Origin: Chloroflexota bacterium
GTDB lineage: Bacteria > Chloroflexota > Anaerolineae > Promineifilales > Promineifilaceae
DNA length: 64,000 nucleotides
NCBI GenBank assembly: GCA_018004935.1
Contig: JAGNBF010000014.1
Span: 35,015-99,014 of the forward strand
Reading direction: 5' to 3'
Below are positions 19,123-49,668 of the stretch, one piece after another (position 1 is the stretch's first letter; each line of letters starts with the position of its first letter). Under the pieces are notes generated by a model. The model saw only the letters and a program-made list of their open reading frames with translations. It was not told where the DNA came from and did not search any database. Position numbers and translations under genes: made by a program.

Positions 19123-20337
19123 TCATCCCTCTCCCTTCCACAGCAACTTCAGCACCCCCCACCAGGAAAAATTATCAATCGTTTCCTGATTGCCTAGCGC
19201 AATATTGATCACCAATCGGCGCAGACGCACCGGTAAACCCGCCGGTTTCGCCAGCCAATTGAGCATAGGTCGGTTCAGGCACAATTGGCGTGCACGCATG
19301 CTAAAAGTGAAGAGCTTTTGGAAATGAGACCGCAGTTTTTGGTCATATTGGTGATAACGGGTCAACGCAAAATCACCCGTCTGGAACATTTCGATGAGAT
19401 GATGGGCGGCGATATGGCCCGATTCTAAAGCGTAATCAATCCCTTCACCGGTGATAGGGTTTACCAACCCGGCCGCTTCGCCTGCGAGCAAGATGTGCTC
19501 CCCAAAAGTAGGGGCGGTGGCAAAATCCATCCGTAATGGGTAGCCCTTGATGGGACCTATTTGTCGGGCCTGCTTGAGGATAGCTTGAAGCGGCCGCGAC
19601 CGTATAAACGCTTCCATCACCGAACGCGGTGAGGGTGGTTTCTTTTTGCCCCCCCGTTCGCTCACTACAACCCCCGCCCCAATGTTGGCCGATGTGGCCG
19701 ATAAGGGAAACACCCAGCCATAACCGGGCAAGGGTACCCCTTCAAAATAAAATTGCACTGCCGGGGGAACCGGAGCTATCTCCTCAAAGTACGTACGGGC
19801 GTCCACTGCGGGCACGATACGGTAATTATCTAAGATGCCAGTCTGGGTTAACAAAGCCGTATTAGCCCCGGTAGCAATAACGGCCATCTTCGCCGTAACC
19901 GTGGATCCATTGGCCCGAACCGTTACCTGTCCATTCTGCCGTTCAATATCTCTCACCAACGCCTGCCGGAAGGTAGCTCCAGCCGTGAGGGCTTGTTCAC
20001 GAATGATGTTGTCCAGCGTAAACCGGGGTACGATAGTGGCAAAGGCAGGCGCCTCTTTAAGCTGAGGAATTGGCTCCAGAAAACCATCACCACTGGGTGC
20101 GGAGAGGCCCATATGTGTGATCCGGTAGCCTACTGTTTGAATCTGGGATAACAGACCCATGTCCTGTAACACGGCCAGAGCACGTGGACTGAGACCATCA
20201 CCACAGGTTTTGTCACGGGGGAACTCGGCTTTGTCAAAAAGAATGGTTTTAAGACCGGCGCGTGCGAGATAGGTCGCGGCCGCGGAGCCGCCCGGTCCTG
20301 CTCCTACCACCGCCACATCATATTGTTGAGTAGCCAT
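19123..20337 (-). CDS. Geranylgeranyl reductase family FAD oxidoreductase
   Basis: 404 residues. Rossmann FAD motif VVGAGPGGSAAATYLARAG (about 10-28), then the family signature DKAEFPRDKTCGDGLSP, and a central GYGWVFPLS...NIGAGV motif and LLAGEAAGLVNPITGEGIDYAL (second FAD motif). The family reduces isoprenoid double bonds (BchP/ChlP chlorophyll side chain, archaeal lipid GGR, menaquinone side chain). No bacteriochlorophyll genes are nearby, so menaquinone or lipid isoprenoid saturation is the more likely role. The frame is open to 20484, but those 49 codons are repeat-derived; the ATG at 20337 opens the conserved domain. Confidence 0.87.
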   Translation of the reverse strand: MATQQYDVAVVGAGPGGSAAATYLARAGLKTILFDKAEFPRDKTCGDGLSPRALAVLQDMGLLSQIQTVGYRITHMGLSAPSGDGFLEPIPQLKEAPAFATIVPRFTLDNIIREQALTAGATFRQALVRDIERQNGQVTVRANGSTVTAKMAVIATGANTALLTQTGILDNYRIVPAVDARTYFEEIAPVPPAVQFYFEGVPLPGYGWVFPLSATSANIGAGVVVSERGGKKKPPSPRSVMEAFIRSRPLQAILKQARQIGPIKGYPLRMDFATAPTFGEHILLAGEAAGLVNPITGEGIDYALESGHIAAHHLIEMFQTGDFALTRYHQYDQKLRSHFQKLFTFSMRARQLCLNRPMLNWLAKPAGLPVRLRRLVINIALGNQETIDNFSWWGVLKLLWKGEG

Positions 20338-21148
20338 AGTTTTCTCAAAATGAACACAAAACCCACTAAACAGGTAATCGTTCAATTGAATCACGTTCTG
20401 CCCGCCCGGTCGTAATTGAGCTTTAACGTAACGACTAAACCTCTCGAGGGCTGAACTTGTCAAAGCCCGTTTTGTCTTCGACAAACTCAGACAACAGGCT
20501 TAATAGTTACGATTCAACAAATTAATACCGGTACAGAGCTTCCCTCACCTCTAACCCCACCGCAGGGGTGGGGAACTTTTTCTCCTGTCCGGGCGGACGC
20601 TCGTGAAAAATGACAGGAGTTCCCCATGCGCCTACGGCGCCCCAAGATGAATGAAAATGACGCCACAATTTTCATCCCCCTCCGTGTTTCTCCCTATCCG
20701 TGTTCTCCTTATCCATAGCTATTTTCGTAGGAGTTCCCCATGGGCGAGACGTGCACCAAGAGGGATGAAAATCTGTAGGACGATTTGATAAATCGTCCGG
20801 GCGATTTACAAAATCGCCCTACATTTTCGTAGGGGCAGGCAGACTGTGGGCCTGGCGTTTTAGTCCGTAGGCTTTCGTCCCTTGAGCCTGGCGGTTTGAC
20901 CGCCGGGCGAAATAACTGGACGCTTATGTAAACAGACAAGATCATACAACCGACAATTGACAATTGGCAATTGTCCCCCGACAATTGTGCGCATTCTGGC
21001 TCTTTGGCAATTCAGGGGTTGACACCATATGTACGGGCTGGCCTTATGCCTGCCCAGTGTGGGGCAACCACAAGGGTTGCCCGTACTCCCCGAAATCCCG
21101 AAGACCCTGCCTTCTCAAGCACCCCTCATTTGCCCATAAGGAGATGTT
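20338..21148. other. Repeat-filled intergenic region
   Basis: Contains a segment with ATTCAATTGAACG (20375-20400), a CTTGTCAAAGC/CTTCGACAA repeat (20448-20495), degenerate hairpin element copy C (20540-20640; the left arm has lost its ATTTTT part while the right keeps GAAAAATGACAGGAG), a CACGGAT/CATTTTC repeat reversed (20647-20775), a GATTTGATAAATCG hairpin (20774-20826), a partial 158-bp element reversed (20846-20935) and a 110-bp element (20998-21107). Confidence 0.7.
20998..21107. mobile_element. 110-bp MITE-like element, second copy
   Basis: Left end GGCTCTTTGGCAATTCAGGG, right end CGAAATCCCGAAGACCC. The interior GGGCTGGCCTTATGCCTGCC and GGGTTGCCCGTA matches 12161-12270. Flanks CGCATTCT and TGCCTTCT match in 6 of 8 positions, an eroded target duplication. 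Confidence 0.7.
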
Positions 21149-41782: not shown

Positions 41783-43522
41783 CTATACCAATGGGCGCAG
41801 AGTTACTTGCTCTCCTTGTCGGCGCAATTCAACCCGATCTCCAGAGAAAATCGTTTGGAAAATATGGGTTGGGAAGTTATAAGCATAAGGGATACCTTCT
41901 AAAGAGCAAGCGGGCGCACTTTGCTGATCCAGGTCTGTGTTGACAATAGCCACAGGCGCAACCCCTTTGTAATATAGTTCTAAAAGTACGTAGGGAGCAA
42001 CCGTAGAACCACTGCCTTTGGGGAAAATGGCAATTTTCCCGGCCATGCTTTGCCCGTTGGCTGGATGTCCTTCTTCTTCAATGACTCCATTGTCTCGATT
42101 TACGAAACCCAAAAAGGTGATAGGTGTTTCGGTAATAAATGCTTCACCGGTGATAATAAAATCACCCTGAGAGGGGAGACCGGAACCCGTGAAAGTGGAG
42201 GGGGTGGTTGGGGTAGGGGGAATGGGAGGTGGGGAATGGTGAAGTGCAGTGGTTTTGGGTGGGCGGACTGAGCCGGAGGGGCTGGTGGGCGTTTCTGGGG
42301 CAAGGGTTTGTGTGCCCGTGGCCAGGGCAAGGCAATCTGATAGGCGCATGACTGAGGTAGGGATGCCGTTGAGGCCAGATTTGATGTAATGTTCGGCTTT
42401 CATGGAGTTGGTGAGGATGTGTTTTACCCAGGTGGGGTCATAAGGCACAACTTCGGGGCAGGTGTTTTCGAGCAGGAGTGCGCCGCTGTCGCGGATGATG
42501 TCGGCCAGCCCTAGTTTTTCGGCGATGGTTTTGTTTTGGCTGGAGGTGAAGACCCAGAGGGGAATAGCCTCGACTCTGCGGCCGCGTAGTTGTTCTGCCA
42601 CAGCTTTGATTTCGCCGATGCTGGCCTGGGGGCAACCGATGACAATGAGGGAGATGGGTTGTTGCGGCCGCAAGGCCGTGTACCGCTCTTGTAGTTCCTT
42701 TTCGCCAAATAACAGCCGGTCCTGGAACTCCGCCGGGGGTCGTGGCCCACTGTTGTCCAGGTAGAGCAAGGGGCAACCATAGTTTGCGGCCGCGGCCGTC
42801 AGCGCTTTCTTTTGCTCATGACTCAATTCGGTGGGTAAACCTTTGATGGCCGGAATAGGGCCATACGGCATCCGCCAGGATGATTGCCGCTGTTTGCCAA
42901 TCCAATCCCCTAACAGAGAAAAATCGGTGGGATCTTCCAACTTTGTGGTGACAATAACCGCCAGGTTGGGGTGGCGATGGGTTTCATCAAGCAGGCCATA
43001 ACGAGGGGTATAACCGGTCAGGGCGGAGGCCAGGGCCGAAAGCCCGGACTCACGGTTAGTGAGCAAACCGGTGTAGGAATTGCCATAACAGATGGCATTG
43101 GATTCTGCCCAGGCGGCATTACCACTGATGACGACACCATCCCATTCATAAGGGGTACATGATTGAGTCGGTCGCACGCCTAATTTAACATAAGCCGCCA
43201 CAATCTCTTCACTTTGGGCCTTGAAATCGGGCACGGCAATCCGCATCAGGTCAAACTGGTTTAGATCACACCCTGCTGAATTTAGGGTAGTGGGTACAGC
43301 TACCTGGGCCTGGGTATCCTGGATGAGTTTCTGAAGAAAGAGGCGCAGGCCCAGCCCGCCAGTAAGAGGAGAAACGCCGGAAAGATGGGCGCTTTGAATA
43401 GGGATAAGTTCGGTAGCATTTGCGGCCGCGGCCAGGTCTAGTATCAGGCGCATAGCCATTTGCCGGGCAACCCCTTGTTCCCCGGCTAACATGGCTGACT
43501 GTGCATTATTTAAAGAGATCAT
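41783..43522 (-). CDS. Aconitase X, fused large and small domains
   Basis: 579 residues. Large domain about 1-400: GVRPTQSCTPYEWDG, GNAAWAESNAICYGNSY, MPYGPIPAIKG, LIVIGCPQASIGEI, LLENTCPEV and NSMKAEHYIKSGL. C122, C297 and C355 are the likely iron-sulfur ligands. A Pro/Thr linker (about 405-452) leads to the small DUF126-type domain, 453-579 (GEAFITETPITFLGFVNR, GQSMAGKIAIFPKGSGST with S492). Characterised aconitase X enzymes are cis-3-hydroxy-L-proline dehydratase (fused type) and phosphomevalonate dehydratase (archaeal two-subunit type). The start overlaps the kinase stop (ATGA), so translation is coupled to the sensor kinase. A UbiD-type decarboxylase lies 4 kb upstream. Confidence 0.88.
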   Translation of the reverse strand: MISLNNAQSAMLAGEQGVARQMAMRLILDLAAAANATELIPIQSAHLSGVSPLTGGLGLRLFLQKLIQDTQAQVAVPTTLNSAGCDLNQFDLMRIAVPDFKAQSEEIVAAYVKLGVRPTQSCTPYEWDGVVISGNAAWAESNAICYGNSYTGLLTNRESGLSALASALTGYTPRYGLLDETHRHPNLAVIVTTKLEDPTDFSLLGDWIGKQRQSSWRMPYGPIPAIKGLPTELSHEQKKALTAAAANYGCPLLYLDNSGPRPPAEFQDRLLFGEKELQERYTALRPQQPISLIVIGCPQASIGEIKAVAEQLRGRRVEAIPLWVFTSSQNKTIAEKLGLADIIRDSGALLLENTCPEVVPYDPTWVKHILTNSMKAEHYIKSGLNGIPTSVMRLSDCLALATGTQTLAPETPTSPSGSVRPPKTTALHHSPPPIPPTPTTPSTFTGSGLPSQGDFIITGEAFITETPITFLGFVNRDNGVIEEEGHPANGQSMAGKIAIFPKGSGSTVAPYVLLELYYKGVAPVAIVNTDLDQQSAPACSLEGIPYAYNFPTHIFQTIFSGDRVELRRQGEQVTLRPLV

Positions 43523-46029
43523 GGTTTTTCCTCAACTGCTGGCAAAATAAAACCAAACCGGCTCCCCTGCCCTGGTTCACTTTCGACAAACACCTGCCCA
43601 CCCAATTTTTCAATGATCCGCTGAACAATGGAAAGCCCCAACCCATGGCCCCTGGCGCGGCCGCGGTCTAAACGGGTGAAAGGGTGGAAGATACGAGCCT
43701 TTTGTTCGGCGGATAAACCTTGCCCATTATCTTGTAACCAAAAGGCTAACAGACCATCATCCCGCCAGGTTACTCCAAATTCCAGAGATGGGGGATGCCC
43801 ACCATACTTCAGGGCATTACTGACATAATTGATCCATACTTCTTCTAACCACGGCGAATACCCTAAAGCCAGGGGCCACTTTTCGGGCAAGGAGATGATA
43901 GCCTTTGTATCCGTGATCATAGGGGATAGGCGTGATAGGGTTTCACGAATAACCGTACCCATGGGTATGGCTTCCCGATATACCTCTTCACGGCGCACAC
44001 TAGACAAAATGAGCAACTCATTGATGATGTTATTCATTTTCTGGCCGCCCCGGAGAATCATATCCAAAAAGGTAAAACGTTCTTCTTCACTCAACAAGGC
44101 AAAATCGGCCACTAACATTTCACTATACCCCATGATCTGGGCTAAAGGGTTTTTCAGATCATGGGCGACAGTATGACCAAACGCATCTAGCTCTTCATTT
44201 TTTTCTCGGAGAAGGTTTGTTTGTTGTTCCAGGGATTGTTGGGCGTTCTTTTGGGCGGTAATATCGTGGAAAACCAGCACACCAACCTGTAATCCCTCGT
44301 TTAAACTTTTAGGTAAAGGGGAAGCATTATAGAGTAACCAGGTATCTTGGGACTTATCGCGGCCGCGGAGCCGCAACTCCATCCCTCTTATCACCCTCCC
44401 CTTAAGCGACTGAATCAACGGACTCTGCTCTGCCGGGCACAAGGTCTTCCCATCCGGTAAATAAAGACCATAATAATAGGTGCGTTCATCCAGACGAATG
44501 TGAGCCGCCTTTCCCCCTAACAACTTTTCCGCCGCCGGATTAAAAAGCAAATAACGCCCCGTCTCATCCGTCACAATAACACCTTCAGCCATACTATTCA
44601 AAATGGCTTCCAAAATCTGCGTTTGTTGGCGCAATGTTTGCTCCGAATGGGCTAGTTCGGCCGTTCGTTCCGCAACCCGTTGTTCCAATGATTCCGCATA
44701 ATCCTGCACCTGCCGTTCCGCCACCTTGCGCCGACTAATATCAGTAAACATCGCCAATGTGCCAATCGTTGTTCCTTCGGCATTCTTTTGCGGCAAGGTG
44801 TGCAACATCGTCACAATATGACGACCATCCCGTGTCACCAGAACACGTTCCTCATCCACCGGCTTACCCTGCAAAGCCATCTCGTAACCACCCCGCTGTA
44901 GTCGTTCCCGCGATTCCGGTGTGTAAAAATTACTCAGTGGCTGACCAATCAATTCTTCCGGTTGATACCCCAATACCTGGCTAAAGAGCCGATTGCAATT
45001 AAGAATCTCTGGCTGATTGAGCACATTTTTCGTCACAACAGACATAACGGGAGCGGCCTCAAAAAGCTCCTGATAGCGAATCTCCGTCTCTTTTTGACTA
45101 GTGATATCCTGATTAAAGGCGACCACACTAATCGGTTCCCCTTTCTCATTCCGTAAAAGCGTAACCGACGAAGTAACATAGCGACGTAAACCATGACGAT
45201 CTTGTTGCGCCAAGTCACCATACCAGAAACCAGCCGAGTGAAGCTGATATAAAAATTGTTGCCGTTTATCCGGCAATAAAACTGTATGAAGTATCTCATC
45301 AATCTGTTTGCCCATAACTTCATGACTGTGCCAGCCATAAATAGCCTCAGCCCCTTTATTCCAACTGGTAATATGGAAATTTAAATCGGTAGCGATTACA
45401 GCATCAGACACCTGTTGTAAAAGATTCGCCTGATACGTTGTTTGGGCCTGGGCAACCTCGGCTTCACGCAAAGCCTGAGTCAGAGTGCGTAAAGCCAGAT
45501 GTAAAACAACCGACAGAATGATGAGATTACTGACAATGCCTACCCAATAGGTCCATGGTGTTTCCTGATAAACGGGAACGAAACCCCCTTTCCAGGCCCA
45601 AAGTGCGGTGATAAAAGCACTTAGCACAATAAAGAGAAAACTGGCCCTGGCACTGAGAAGTAAGCCTGTGATTAAGGCGACAAGCAAATAACTGGGCAAT
45701 ACAGGACTATTCAGCCCCCCCTGCCAATGCACCAGAGCCGAAATACTAATCCACATAATGCTGACGAAAGCCCAACTGGCTAAATGGAGATACCCCCGGC
45801 GCAAAAGTTCCGCCCCCAACCCCAAGGGTAGCAACACAACAAGCATAGTCGCCAGACGTAGAAACCTGTTTTCACCTGGGTCAAAAAAAACAGCGATGAT
45901 ATTAGAAATAATGACGGTGAAAAAAGTAGCCCGTAAAATAAAATGAAACATCGCCGAACGACGTGCGTCTTCGTGAGCGTTATAGACACTTGCAGGCAAA
46001 CTCAGGAGAGAAAATAACCAACGAAACAT
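43519..46029 (-). CDS. Membrane PAS histidine kinase
   Basis: 836 residues from the ATG at 46029; the frame is open to 46167 but those codons come from a mobile repeat. Six or seven N-terminal membrane helices (about 25-190), then three PAS domains (about 205-325 ISDAVIATDLNFHITSWNKG; 330-450; 480-600 ILNSMAEGVIVTDETGRYLL). HisKA follows at about 630 (FGHTVAHDLKNPLAQIMGYS, phospho-acceptor His), and HATPase_c with VWINYVSNALKYGG, DNGQGLS and GHGLGLSIVQRIIEKLGG. No response regulator is adjacent, so it is an orphan. It overlaps aconitase X by four bases. Confidence 0.93.
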   Translation of the reverse strand: MFRWLFSLLSLPASVYNAHEDARRSAMFHFILRATFFTVIISNIIAVFFDPGENRFLRLATMLVVLLPLGLGAELLRRGYLHLASWAFVSIMWISISALVHWQGGLNSPVLPSYLLVALITGLLLSARASFLFIVLSAFITALWAWKGGFVPVYQETPWTYWVGIVSNLIILSVVLHLALRTLTQALREAEVAQAQTTYQANLLQQVSDAVIATDLNFHITSWNKGAEAIYGWHSHEVMGKQIDEILHTVLLPDKRQQFLYQLHSAGFWYGDLAQQDRHGLRRYVTSSVTLLRNEKGEPISVVAFNQDITSQKETEIRYQELFEAAPVMSVVTKNVLNQPEILNCNRLFSQVLGYQPEELIGQPLSNFYTPESRERLQRGGYEMALQGKPVDEERVLVTRDGRHIVTMLHTLPQKNAEGTTIGTLAMFTDISRRKVAERQVQDYAESLEQRVAERTAELAHSEQTLRQQTQILEAILNSMAEGVIVTDETGRYLLFNPAAEKLLGGKAAHIRLDERTYYYGLYLPDGKTLCPAEQSPLIQSLKGRVIRGMELRLRGRDKSQDTWLLYNASPLPKSLNEGLQVGVLVFHDITAQKNAQQSLEQQTNLLREKNEELDAFGHTVAHDLKNPLAQIMGYSEMLVADFALLSEEERFTFLDMILRGGQKMNNIINELLILSSVRREEVYREAIPMGTVIRETLSRLSPMITDTKAIISLPEKWPLALGYSPWLEEVWINYVSNALKYGGHPPSLEFGVTWRDDGLLAFWLQDNGQGLSAEQKARIFHPFTRLDRGRARGHGLGLSIVQRIIEKLGGQVFVESEPGQGSRFGFILPAVEEKP

Positions 46030-46054
46030 GGATACCCATCCGTAACAAAAAAGA

Positions 46055-46165
46055 GGGTCTTTGGGGATTTGTGGGGTACGGGCAACCCTTGTGGTTGCCC
46101 CACACGGGGCTGGCACAAGGCCAGCCCCTACATCTGGTGTTAACCCCCTGAATTCCCAAAGAACC
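46055..46165. mobile_element. 111-bp MITE-like element with perfect 8-bp target duplication
   Basis: Ends GGGTCTTTGGGGATTTGTGG and CTGAATTCCCAAAGAACC. Flanked by AAAAAAGA on both sides (46047-46054 and 46166-46173). Same family as 12161-12270, 20998-21107 and 36642-36750. Confidence 0.85.
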
Positions 46166-46357
46166 AAAAAAGATTATTGTTTTAAGCGGGATACTACTTT
46201 AGCACTATGTTACAACAGAATAGCTGGGGTTGGGTAAAGATAGGGAAATAAGTAAGGGATCTTGTTTAGATAACCAGCAAGTATGCCCCAGATTGAATTT
46301 AAGAATCCAGGAATTGGTACCAAATAAGGCGTGATTCAAAAGTTGGCAAACGGTGCT

Positions 46358-46500
46358 TAGTAATTGTTCGCAATTAACTTAGCGATTTGCTGTGGCCAGT
46401 CTCCTGACCGAGCCACAGCAGGTTATCAAGCGCGGCCGCGCTCGATAACCTGCACAGGAGAAAGTTCCCCGCCCCTGAGGTTAGGGTTCGGGGAACTCCG
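46358..46500. repeat. Composite intergenic repeat
   Basis: The 60-bp CGCAATTAACTTAGCG plus GGCCAGTCTCCTGACCG unit (as at 220-277), then GGTTATCAAGCGCGG / CCGCGCTCGATAACC, a 30-bp palindrome with one mismatch (46421-46450) centred on GCGGCCGC. This runs into AGGAGAAAGTTCCCCGCCCC, the reversed hairpin-element scaffold. The rest of 46166-46531 shows nothing. Confidence 0.7.
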
Positions 46501-46531
46501 AGTATACAATCGCCCTGGCGTCCGCCACAGA

Positions 46532-47521
46532 TCAACGCTCAAGAAGTGGGGGAATTACGTGTTGGGCTGAGGATGGGGGATCCTCATTGCTTTGGCGCCG
46601 TAATGATGCCGGTTTGCCCTCCCGCCAATGGACAAATTCCCGTACCGTATCATAGGCAAAATCAATATCGGTATGGGCGGCAAAGGTACGCAAAATCGCT
46701 TCCCAAATTTGTTGCTCATTGTTGCGCACCTGCCGGGGATCAATAAGATACCGTAAAGTCAGTAACACCCCATTGCTTACAACCTTGGTGTATACCGTGG
46801 GTCGGGTGTTGCCGTAGGAAATAACAAAACGTTGATCCGGTTCCAGCGCCTGTCGCCTGATGAGATCATCTACATCTGGTGCATATTCGGTCAAAATCGT
46901 CCCCAGCAGGGTTTTAGCCTTTTCCCAGGCACTTTCAAAGGTCAAAACAATAGGGATTTCATGCCAGATTAGCGGTAGCCCCTGAGTGTAATTGACAAAC
47001 ACATCACTAAAAACTTTGCCGTTGGGGACATGAATGATGCGTCCGGTGCTTTGTTCCGCCTGAATACGTTTACCAATCTCTAGTAGAGCAAACTCAAACA
47101 GGCGAATGTCAATCACATCACCGGCAAAGCCTTCGATCTCAATGCGATCCCCTACCTGAAACGGCTTCCGCCAGATGATGAAGAACCAGCCCGCCAGGTT
47201 TACGAGTACATCTTGTAAGGCAATGGCCAGACCCGCTGAGACCAGCCCTAGGTAGGTGGCGATGGTATGTACGCCGACTAACCAGATGCGCCCTACCAGA
47301 ATGAGACCTAAGATTGCCAGGGTGTATTGTGTTCCTTTGCGCCAGTTATAAAGGGCACGGGTATCTTGAGCATAGCGGCGGTGCACCAGGCGCATGATAA
47401 GCACCCGGGCCAGCCAGAGTAGTAAAAGGATTGCCAGAGAGTTCAGCAAATGGCTGAAGGTTTCGGCATTGATGTCTATACCAGAAAATCGGAAGAATAG
47501 TGCACGTAATGTTTCTGACAT
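46532..47521 (-). CDS. Small-conductance mechanosensitive channel, MscS family
   Basis: 329 residues from the ATG at 47521; the longer frame to 47581 is repeat-derived. Three or four membrane helices to about residue 130, with the pore helix and beta-domain signature GLVSAGLAIALQDVLVNLAGWFFIIWRKPFQVGDRIEI, then GDVIDIRLFEFALLEIG and a cytoplasmic alpha/beta tail. Protects against osmotic downshock. Same strand as ubiD but 214 bp away across repeats. Confidence 0.92.
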   Translation of the reverse strand: MSETLRALFFRFSGIDINAETFSHLLNSLAILLLLWLARVLIMRLVHRRYAQDTRALYNWRKGTQYTLAILGLILVGRIWLVGVHTIATYLGLVSAGLAIALQDVLVNLAGWFFIIWRKPFQVGDRIEIEGFAGDVIDIRLFEFALLEIGKRIQAEQSTGRIIHVPNGKVFSDVFVNYTQGLPLIWHEIPIVLTFESAWEKAKTLLGTILTEYAPDVDDLIRRQALEPDQRFVISYGNTRPTVYTKVVSNGVLLTLRYLIDPRQVRNNEQQIWEAILRTFAAHTDIDFAYDTVREFVHWREGKPASLRRQSNEDPPSSAQHVIPPLLER

Positions 47522-47551
47522 GGTGTAAATAAAATAAACCCTTAGACTGGT

Positions 47552-47725
47552 AATGTAGGGACAACCCTTGTGGTTGTCCACAGGGCAGGTATGAAGTCAG
47601 CCCCTACCCCATGAAATCCCCAGCCAGTGGAAAGGGGAGAAACCCACGGCGCGGTTCGGGGGCGGCCGCCCCCGAACCGCGCCGGAAAAAGTTCCCTGTC
47701 CCTGAGGCGGGGTTAGGGGTGGGGT
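47552..47725. repeat. Partial 110-bp element and reversed hairpin element, copy H
   Basis: 47552-47625: GGACAACCCTTGTGGTTGTC and CAGCCCCTACC piece. Then the scaffold in reverse with a perfect 16-bp stem GGCGCGGTTCGGGGGC (47648-47663 with 47668-47683) whose loop GGCC makes a GCGGCCGC. It ends in GGGGTTAGGGGTGGGG. A lone ACTGAACGCTTAC end follows at 47727-47739, overlapping the ubiD stop. Confidence 0.8.
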
Positions 47726-47735
47726 AACTGAACGC

Positions 47736-49046
47736 TTACAAATATTGTTTTAAGTCAACGACCCCATATGCACCACGGATAAATTTGCTCTTTTCTCCGC
47801 CCCAGGGAATGGTGCAATCTAGACCCATCTTGGCGGTCAGGCTCTTTTGTCCTGGCGCATGAATCCCTGACGGATCCAGGGAACTCCCTGGCTGGCACTC
47901 CAGGATCAGTAAATCTTTGTCTGCCTGGAAACGTGTGGCTACGGCCCACTCTACATCGGCGGGGTTGTAAATATCTACATCAGTATCTACTACCCAGACA
48001 TGTTTTAGGGAGCTATGTCCGCGAAAAGCCGCCTCAATGGCCAACCGGCCATCGTCTGGCCCTTGTTTCTCAATTTGTACTACGGCATGAAGCCAGGATG
48101 TGCCCCCTGGGGTAATGGCTACGCCGGTACAATGTGTTACTTTATTGACCTCAGCCCAAATAGTGGGTTCACGAGGCATTCCCATGAGTAATTTGTGTTC
48201 TAACCCACCGGGTAACAAAGCATGGTAGATGGGGTTGTGCCTGTGGGTGATGAGGTCAATTTCAATGACCGGTTCCTGGCGCACAAAATCCATTGTTTCG
48301 GTTAAATCCATGAATGGCCCTTCGGTGGCCCGTCGTCGGGTGATGCGGCCTTCCAGTACAATTTCTGCATCTGCTGGGACTTCTAAATCTTTGGTCAGGC
48401 ATTTGACCAAAGGGGTAGGTTGGAGAGCGTGGGCCACGCTCAGTTCATCTACCTCTGGGGGGGGTGACATGGATGCGGCCAGGTGGGTGGCTAAGGAGAC
48501 GCCAATACAGATGGCGACGGGCAAGTCACCTTCAACTTTACTCATGGCGGTGTGGGTTCCGCGCCGTTCAACGATGCGTGCGGCCAAATGTTTTTCGTCC
48601 AGGCGGAGGAGGCGGTGATAGCACATATTGCGCCCGAAGTCTGGGTCTTTGGTGATAACGACGTTGCTGGCGCAGTAGTAACCTCCATCTTGGGGGAGAT
48701 GAAATAGGAAGGGCAGGGTCATCAGGTTGACGTTTTCGATGATGATTTCCTGGCAGGGGGCTTCTTTGACTAGTGGGGGTGTTTGCGGCCGCGCCAGGGC
48801 CTGGGCCAAATGCTGAGTCAATTGGTTGATGGGCACACCCAAATCCAGGCTGAAATATTTGCGGTCTGCACAGGGGCCGGAGTTGACTTGCCAGCCGGGA
48901 TGTCCTACCACGTTGGTAAAGGTGACGGTTTTGCCCTCTAGCGCGTGGGCCACATTGGCTAATTCAAAATGGGGGCTGACGGGTTTATGAATGGTGATGA
49001 GGTCGCCTGAAGCGACGGCTTTTTCGAGAAAGGTACGGTAACTCAT
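47736..49046 (-). CDS. UbiD-family decarboxylase, archaeal AMPD-like
   Basis: 436 residues, shorter than classic UbiD (about 490) and close to archaeal members. prFMN-dependent decarboxylase fold: CQEIIIENVNLMTLPFL, DGGYYCASNVVITKDP, MCYHRLLRLDEKHLAARIV (R145), VPADAEIVLEGRI, EGPFMDLTE (E242, D247), HRHNPIYHALLPGGLEHKLL and SSLKHVWVVDTDVDIYNP. R145, E242 and D247 fit the Arg-Glu-Glu/Asp triad of the family. Candidate substrates include anhydromevalonate phosphate or an aromatic/quinone acid. The enzyme needs UbiX-made prFMN; ubiX is not in the window. Four bases downstream of tetR, so co-transcribed. Confidence 0.88.
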   Translation of the reverse strand: MSYRTFLEKAVASGDLITIHKPVSPHFELANVAHALEGKTVTFTNVVGHPGWQVNSGPCADRKYFSLDLGVPINQLTQHLAQALARPQTPPLVKEAPCQEIIIENVNLMTLPFLFHLPQDGGYYCASNVVITKDPDFGRNMCYHRLLRLDEKHLAARIVERRGTHTAMSKVEGDLPVAICIGVSLATHLAASMSPPPEVDELSVAHALQPTPLVKCLTKDLEVPADAEIVLEGRITRRRATEGPFMDLTETMDFVRQEPVIEIDLITHRHNPIYHALLPGGLEHKLLMGMPREPTIWAEVNKVTHCTGVAITPGGTSWLHAVVQIEKQGPDDGRLAIEAAFRGHSSLKHVWVVDTDVDIYNPADVEWAVATRFQADKDLLILECQPGSSLDPSGIHAPGQKSLTAKMGLDCTIPWGGEKSKFIRGAYGVVDLKQYL

Positions 49047-49050
49047 ACGT

Positions 49051-49668
49051 TCAATTTCCCTTATGACCGGCTGAACGCAGGGCGAAGGCGGTCATTTCTT
49101 GGATGATCGCGGCCGCAACCGCCGCTGGTTCCGGTAAACTGAGTAAATGCAACACAATCTCATCAAATGCCCCAGATAACCCCTCAGCGGTAATGCGAGT
49201 ATTTTGGGGGGGGATTTCCCCTTTTTCCAGGGCTTCATCCAGGGCGTCCTGCCACAAATCGGCTATATCGTTACGGAAGCGGCCGCGGCTTTCCACCAGT
49301 GCTGGGACGGCCCCTACACCTCCAACCAGGAGAAGTTGTACCACAGCCGGTTCGTAGGTAGCGACATTAACAAAGGAATGCAACGCGGCCGCGATCCGTC
49401 CTGGTAACTGGTCGCTTCGACGTAACCCTTGCTCAATTGCCCGCAGAAGAAAGTCTGCCGTTTCTTCATATAAATAGACAAACAGTGTCTCTTTGTCGGG
49501 AAAATAGAAATAAAAAGTGCCAATCGCCACTTCGGCCGCATTGACAATGTCCCGTACGGTGGCGGCATGGAAACCTTTCTCGGCAAATACACGCACCGCC
49601 GCCTGCATCATGGCTGTACGTTTGGCATCTTTTTTTTCGCGAGTTCGGTCAGTGGTGCGGTAGGGCAT
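49051..49668 (-). CDS. TetR-family transcriptional regulator
   Basis: 205 residues. Helix-turn-helix at about 17-65: MMQAAVRVFAEKGFHAATVR, then DIVNAAEVAIGTFYFYFPDKETL. The C-terminal ligand domain is helical and not assigned. Lies 4 bp ahead of the UbiD-type gene in the same orientation, so it likely regulates that gene and itself. Many TetR proteins of this layout sense acyl-CoA or isoprenoid-like ligands, but the ligand here is unknown. Three GCGGCCGC copies in 620 bp. Confidence 0.92.
   Translation of the reverse strand: MPYRTTDRTREKKDAKRTAMMQAAVRVFAEKGFHAATVRDIVNAAEVAIGTFYFYFPDKETLFVYLYEETADFLLRAIEQGLRRSDQLPGRIAAALHSFVNVATYEPAVVQLLLVGGVGAVPALVESRGRFRNDIADLWQDALDEALEKGEIPPQNTRITAEGLSGAFDEIVLHLLSLPEPAAVAAAIIQEMTAFALRSAGHKGN

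Follow-up and report, generated by a model that had tools for sequence, protein, structure and literature searches.

Five genes follow one another on the minus strand of the window (the whole stretch of 64,000 nucleotides of Chloroflexota DNA that was analysed). In the direction of transcription, they encode a TetR-family regulator (49051..49668; PF00440), a UbiD-family decarboxylase (47736..49046), an MscS-type channel (46532..47581; PF00924), a PAS histidine kinase (43519..46167) and a single-chain aconitase X, or AcnX (41783..43522). A first-pass annotation of the same DNA had reported a fused aconitase X and a UbiD-type reading frame with two genes between them. Their coordinates and shared strand were confirmed, and the intervening genes are those of the channel and the kinase. 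The regulator gene lies 4 bp upstream of the UbiD gene and is possibly its operon partner. The kinase, judged by its Pfam domains and coordinates, is not a pathway enzyme; the stop codon of its gene overlaps the start codon of the AcnX gene (ATGA). The MscS channel gene directly precedes the equivalent of the AcnX gene in five close relatives (L105, L106, L109, L110 and L112). Elsewhere in the window (19123-20484, minus strand) a geranylgeranyl reductase family protein is encoded, which is isoprenoid-linked and scored 198 bits with TIGR02032, above the cut-off.

The AcnX and UbiD proteins

The AcnX protein (579 aa) is a predicted (R)-5-phosphomevalonate dehydratase (PMDh), on the basis of its Pfam domains, residue set, position in a tree and structural model. 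PF04412 matches residues 3-398 (E 2.5e-93), and residues 468-545 match the swivel domain PF01989. The large part (domains 1-2-3, approximately residues 1-403; 42314..43522) is followed by a linker (approximately residues 404-443; 42194..42313) and the small swivel part (domain 4, approximately residues 444-579; 41786..42193). This order, 1-2-3-4, is the opposite of that in the characterised fused AcnX enzymes, which act on hydroxyproline and carry the small domain at the N-terminus in the order 4-1-2-3 (PMC10040528). The best NCBIfam AcnX model was LhpI, whose score of 226 bits falls well short of the cut-off of 700. An AlphaFold2 model of the protein had a mean pLDDT of 90.6, with a low-confidence linker around residues 414-439 (pLDDT below 50 at 414-431 and 436-439). 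The model matched the large chain of the Thermococcus kodakarensis enzyme TkAcnX (7cnr_A) with a Z of 49.1 and an rmsd of 1.9 over 379 residues, against a Z of 36 for the hydroxyproline enzyme.

Residues were mapped onto the TkAcnX/MVA5P structure (PMC8184944). C122, C297 and C355, singled out in the first-pass annotation, are indeed the three cluster cysteines of the AcnX family and occupy sites A, 1 and B; site C holds a Glu and no cysteine, as is characteristic of type IIb AcnX. E140, K375 and Y379 are the catalytic or substrate residues. The catalytic serine of the small domain had been placed at S492, which was in error; the correct residue is S506, within S506-T507-V508. The match to the MVA5P site of TkAcnX extends over Cys297 at site 1, the phosphate loop G49-V50-S51, N81, E140, S141, K375, Y379 and S506-T507-V508. 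Two MVA5P-contact positions are unlike TkAcnX (N53 to T54 and S131 to N142), and the same changes occur in a related Marine Group III enzyme. The feature set of type I AcnX comprises a single chain ordered 4-1-2-3, a serine at site 1, a cysteine at site C and hydroxyproline-binding residues, and it was not found in the protein. The two-subunit organisation of type IIb was not found either, as the large and small parts of the window PMDh are joined, in that order, in one chain; the protein is a single-chain variant of the type IIb family rather than a plain member. The earlier objection that characterised fused AcnX enzymes act on cis-3-hydroxyproline falls because those enzymes differ in domain order, which is small-large, and in residue set.

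A second AcnX is encoded on contig 50 of the same genome (237-1963). It consists of separate subunits, scored 431 bits with LhpI and carries the hydroxyproline-type set of a site-1 Ser, a DGCL loop and a Trp. Its counterpart in other genomes of the family (L103 and L104) has the large part followed by the small part in one chain, apparently an independent fusion.

The UbiD protein (436 aa) is a predicted prFMN decarboxylase, specifically a trans-anhydromevalonate 5-phosphate decarboxylase (AMPD), as judged by its domains, the motif EGPFMD and its clade. All three UbiD Pfam domains (PF20695, PF01977 and PF20696) scored above the cut-off, and TIGR00148 scored 331 bits. R145, E242 and D247, named in the first-pass annotation, are invariant among relatives; they provide the R-E-(D/E) catalytic residues of the family, and UbiX is encoded in the genome. 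The EGPFxD motif is present in 51 of 54 relatives and was not found in the other three. In the tree, the protein grouped with UbiDs of archaeal mevalonate operons, the deepest split from other UbiDs being weakly supported (69/99). It is the single UbiD detected by a profile search of the genome.

Isoprenoid genes and the proposed pathway

The inventory was taken from the window's genome, a 96.6% complete assembly in 229 contigs, by profile searches that detect profile-recognisable genes only. A 3-hydroxy-3-methylglutaryl (HMG)-CoA synthase of the archaeal type (TIGR00748, 545 against a cut-off of 353) lies in a row with a class II HMG-CoA reductase, a thiolase and a ChsH2-type OB-fold protein. 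Mevalonate kinase (248 against 163), isopentenyl phosphate kinase (IPK; 165 against 120) and UbiX were also found. A second HMG-CoA reductase homologue, on contig 134 (L008:988-2625), is class I-like and carries HMG-CoA_red_N. Treating the two reductase matches as equals was rejected on these grounds; the class II enzyme in the synthase row is likely the pathway enzyme, and the class I-like protein may be FcrA, the fatty acyl-CoA reductase of 'Candidatus Promineifilum breve' (PMC11948995).

GcpE/IspG, which here stands for the whole MEP pathway, was not found by the profile search, and neither was a diphosphomevalonate or phosphomevalonate decarboxylase (MVD/PMD)-type domain, although in an assembly of this completeness a missed MVD is conceivable. 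No phosphomevalonate kinase was found among the GHMP kinases of the genome, as the remaining members are ThrB, a galactokinase by sequence and an HddA-like kinase. The pathway genes are scattered across several contigs. The components of the archaeal modified mevalonate pathway, namely PMDh, UbiD, UbiX, IPK, HMG-CoA synthase, HMG-CoA reductase and mevalonate kinase, are thus all encoded in the genome. The first-pass annotation had proposed an archaeal-style mevalonate shunt with a one-chain aconitase X in a bacterium. The presence of the four genes that it named for checking (mevalonate kinase, HMG-CoA reductase, IPK and ubiX), the absence of MVD/PMD and, as far as IspG represents them, of the DXP genes, and the residues, phylogeny and operon context described here all support this reading.

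The two genes very probably encode the signature enzymes of the archaeal mevalonate route inside a Chloroflexota bacterium. We hold with high confidence that the AcnX and UbiD proteins are the predicted PMDh and AMPD of the archaeal modified mevalonate pathway, which is the only isopentenyl diphosphate (IPP) route recognised in this genome. In this pathway, the single-chain, iron-sulphur PMDh would convert mevalonate 5-phosphate to trans-anhydromevalonate 5-phosphate, AMPD would use prFMN supplied by UbiX to convert the latter to isopentenyl phosphate, and IPK would form IPP from isopentenyl phosphate. We infer the reactions, the cluster type and the use of the predicted pathway in vivo from sequence.

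Distribution, gene histories and rival explanations

Among 400 Chloroflexota genomes sampled, 55 belong to the class of the window's genome. IspG was found in none of these 55, and a strong MVD/PMD was found in 49. The remaining six, from four families (the window's genome, G144, G372, G136, G184 and G361), all contain an AMPD-like UbiD and an AcnX; the complementarity has a p of 7e-6, calculated ignoring relatedness. Outside the class, G011 (8% contamination) also lacks MVD/PMD and contains UbiD and AcnX. Four genomes of the class contain both MVD and the pair (G072, G397, G200 and G232). The UbiD and AcnX genes are adjacent in many relatives, sister genomes included. Locus L114 encodes proteins identical to those of G144, and by family code G144 and the window's genome belong together. 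At five loci (L131, L127, L090, L097 and L099) the pair occurs with mevalonate kinase, UbiX or IPK, as in the following operons of other Chloroflexota: MK-UbiD-AcnX L-AcnX S-IPK with one kinase gene inserted (L131), UbiX-UbiD-AcnX L-AcnX S-IPK (L127) and UbiD-AcnX L-AcnX S-IPK (L090).

In genomes of families f2, f5 and f11, a phosphomevalonate decarboxylase was observed together with a UbiD-AcnX L-AcnX S-UbiX set, the two being close together in L093 (7435-12295) and L124. Such genomes may run the two routes side by side or be in the course of switching between them. The Firmicutes MAG HGW-Firmicutes-14 (L128:8004-9650) also encodes a PMDh-like AcnX pair, with UbiX in the vicinity; this pair is basal in the PMDh clade and is a possible bacterial case outside Chloroflexota.

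The window AcnX fell inside the archaeal PMDh clade, separated from hydroxyproline-type AcnX with support of 100/100. Chloroflexota occupy four places in the PMDh tree. The Promineifilum family groups first with Marine Group III (100/100) and next with Heimdallarchaeota, families f7, f8 and f14 with a Culexarchaeota sequence (100/98), families f2, f5 and f11 with Asgard archaea (98/86), and G011 with Micrarchaeota (99/94). The AMPD tree differs in placing the Promineifilum family with f7, f8 and f14 (100/99). Single-chain PMDh was found in every Promineifilum-family locus examined and, confirmed by Pfam, in the Marine Group III euryarchaeote CG-Bathy1. A second archaeal-titled fused PMDh is found on a 4-kb contig (L121), although its identity is less certain.

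AU tests rejected a single origin of all Chloroflexota PMDh (p 9e-4) and of all Chloroflexota AMPD (p 1e-77), the joining of Promineifilum PMDh with the f7, f8 and f14 group (p 8e-12) and the placement of Promineifilum-family AMPD as sister of Marine Group III AMPD (p 2.5e-4); the groups were in part defined once the trees were known, which makes these p-values optimistic, and long branches are present. The AMPD and PMDh of the Promineifilum family therefore appear to have different histories, as the two trees join them to different partners. Two archaeal sequences suggest that transfer ran from archaea to bacteria. We favour, with some reserve, the reading that Chloroflexota gained the archaeal mevalonate route several times, with about four PMDh entries (the closest archaeal relatives being Marine Group III/Heimdall, Culexarchaeota, Asgard and Micrarchaeota), and that it replaced phosphomevalonate decarboxylase in several lineages. 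The Promineifilum lineage would then be a mosaic, its AMPD common to other Chloroflexota and its PMDh exchanged for the single-chain (1-2-3-4) form of a Marine Group III-like archaeon.

It could be argued that the two are unrelated neighbours, with the fused AcnX acting as a cis-3-hydroxyproline dehydratase and the UbiD as an aromatic acid decarboxylase: LhpI is the best NCBIfam model, TIGR00148 describes the general UbiD family and two unrelated genes separate the pair. We consider this very improbable. The LhpI score is far below the cut-off, the domain order, residues and tree are all unlike LhpI, and the genome has a separate LhpI-like paralogue on contig 50. Moreover, the two genes stand side by side in sister genomes and are accompanied by mevalonate kinase, UbiX or IPK in other families, while the UbiD is the sole one in a genome in which another IPP route was not found. 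Equally improbable is that IPP is made through phosphomevalonate decarboxylase and IPK, with the pair as an accessory, despite the strong MVD/PMD of most of the class and the four genomes with both. The window's genome and two other genomes from the family, one of them 99% complete in three contigs, yielded no MVD-like domain.

The position of both proteins inside archaeal clades and the many MAGs among the relatives could also point to archaeal contamination or a binning artefact. This is the least credible of the alternatives, as the same contig carries bacterial-kind F-ATP synthase, MreB, TypA and sigma-factor genes, the contigs that bear the pair measure 3.99 Mb in G372 and 412 kb in L116, and over a dozen Chloroflexota MAGs concur. 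Assignment of the pair to the archaeal modified mevalonate pathway is the reading that we retain.

Relation to known systems

A 2023 paper described the archaeal pathway as exclusive to archaea (PMC10040528). Some Chloroflexota have since been described as encoding it (PMC13001223), and it is reported in 'Candidatus Promineifilum breve' by Kanno et al. (2024, Appl Environ Microbiol 90:e0110624), as cited in PMC13001223 (reference 64). Going by this citation, the pathway is already known in Chloroflexota and the window is a further case. What may be new are several further families with the pathway, its multiple origins, the single-chain link to Marine Group III and the split histories of AMPD and PMDh. 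The literature examined, which did not extend to Kanno et al. (2024), mentions neither the domain order of the single chain nor its link to Marine Group III nor the multiple origins, and no priority is claimed. If the distribution holds, archaeal isoprenoid chemistry would be a recurrent option in a bacterial class, acquired more than once, and the genomes containing both routes may represent an intermediate state. As a compact protein, the single-chain PMDh is a candidate for engineering; it would also mark a transfer of genes that links bacteria with a group of marine archaea.

'Ca. Promineifilum breve', as cited in PMC13001223, shares its phylum and pathway with the window's genome and probably its family. 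By taxonomy codes, the window's genome is of another genus than G144 and G372, and its pair is split by two genes. Other Chloroflexota have a phosphomevalonate decarboxylase and IPK pathway (Dellas et al., 2013, cited in PMC13001223), which has mevalonate kinase and IPK in common with the window's genome; the latter lacks PMD/MVD. LhpI, the type I cis-3-hydroxyproline dehydratase, shares the AcnX family and a single chain with the window protein but differs in domain order, in the hydroxyproline-binding residues, which are missing here, and in its weaker structural match. The type IIb PMDh enzymes of Aeropyrum pernix and T. kodakarensis (PMC10040528; PMC8184944) are like the window protein in the three cluster cysteines, most MVA5P-site residues and the fold, whereas they consist of two subunits and it is one chain. 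The fused PMDh of CG-Bathy1 (L119; MIYU01000001) has the same single-chain order and 50% identity to the window PMDh over the full length. At that locus UbiD and mevalonate kinase genes lie directly upstream of the PMDh gene, although the CG-Bathy1 AMPD, unlike the PMDh, is not sister to that of the Promineifilum family.
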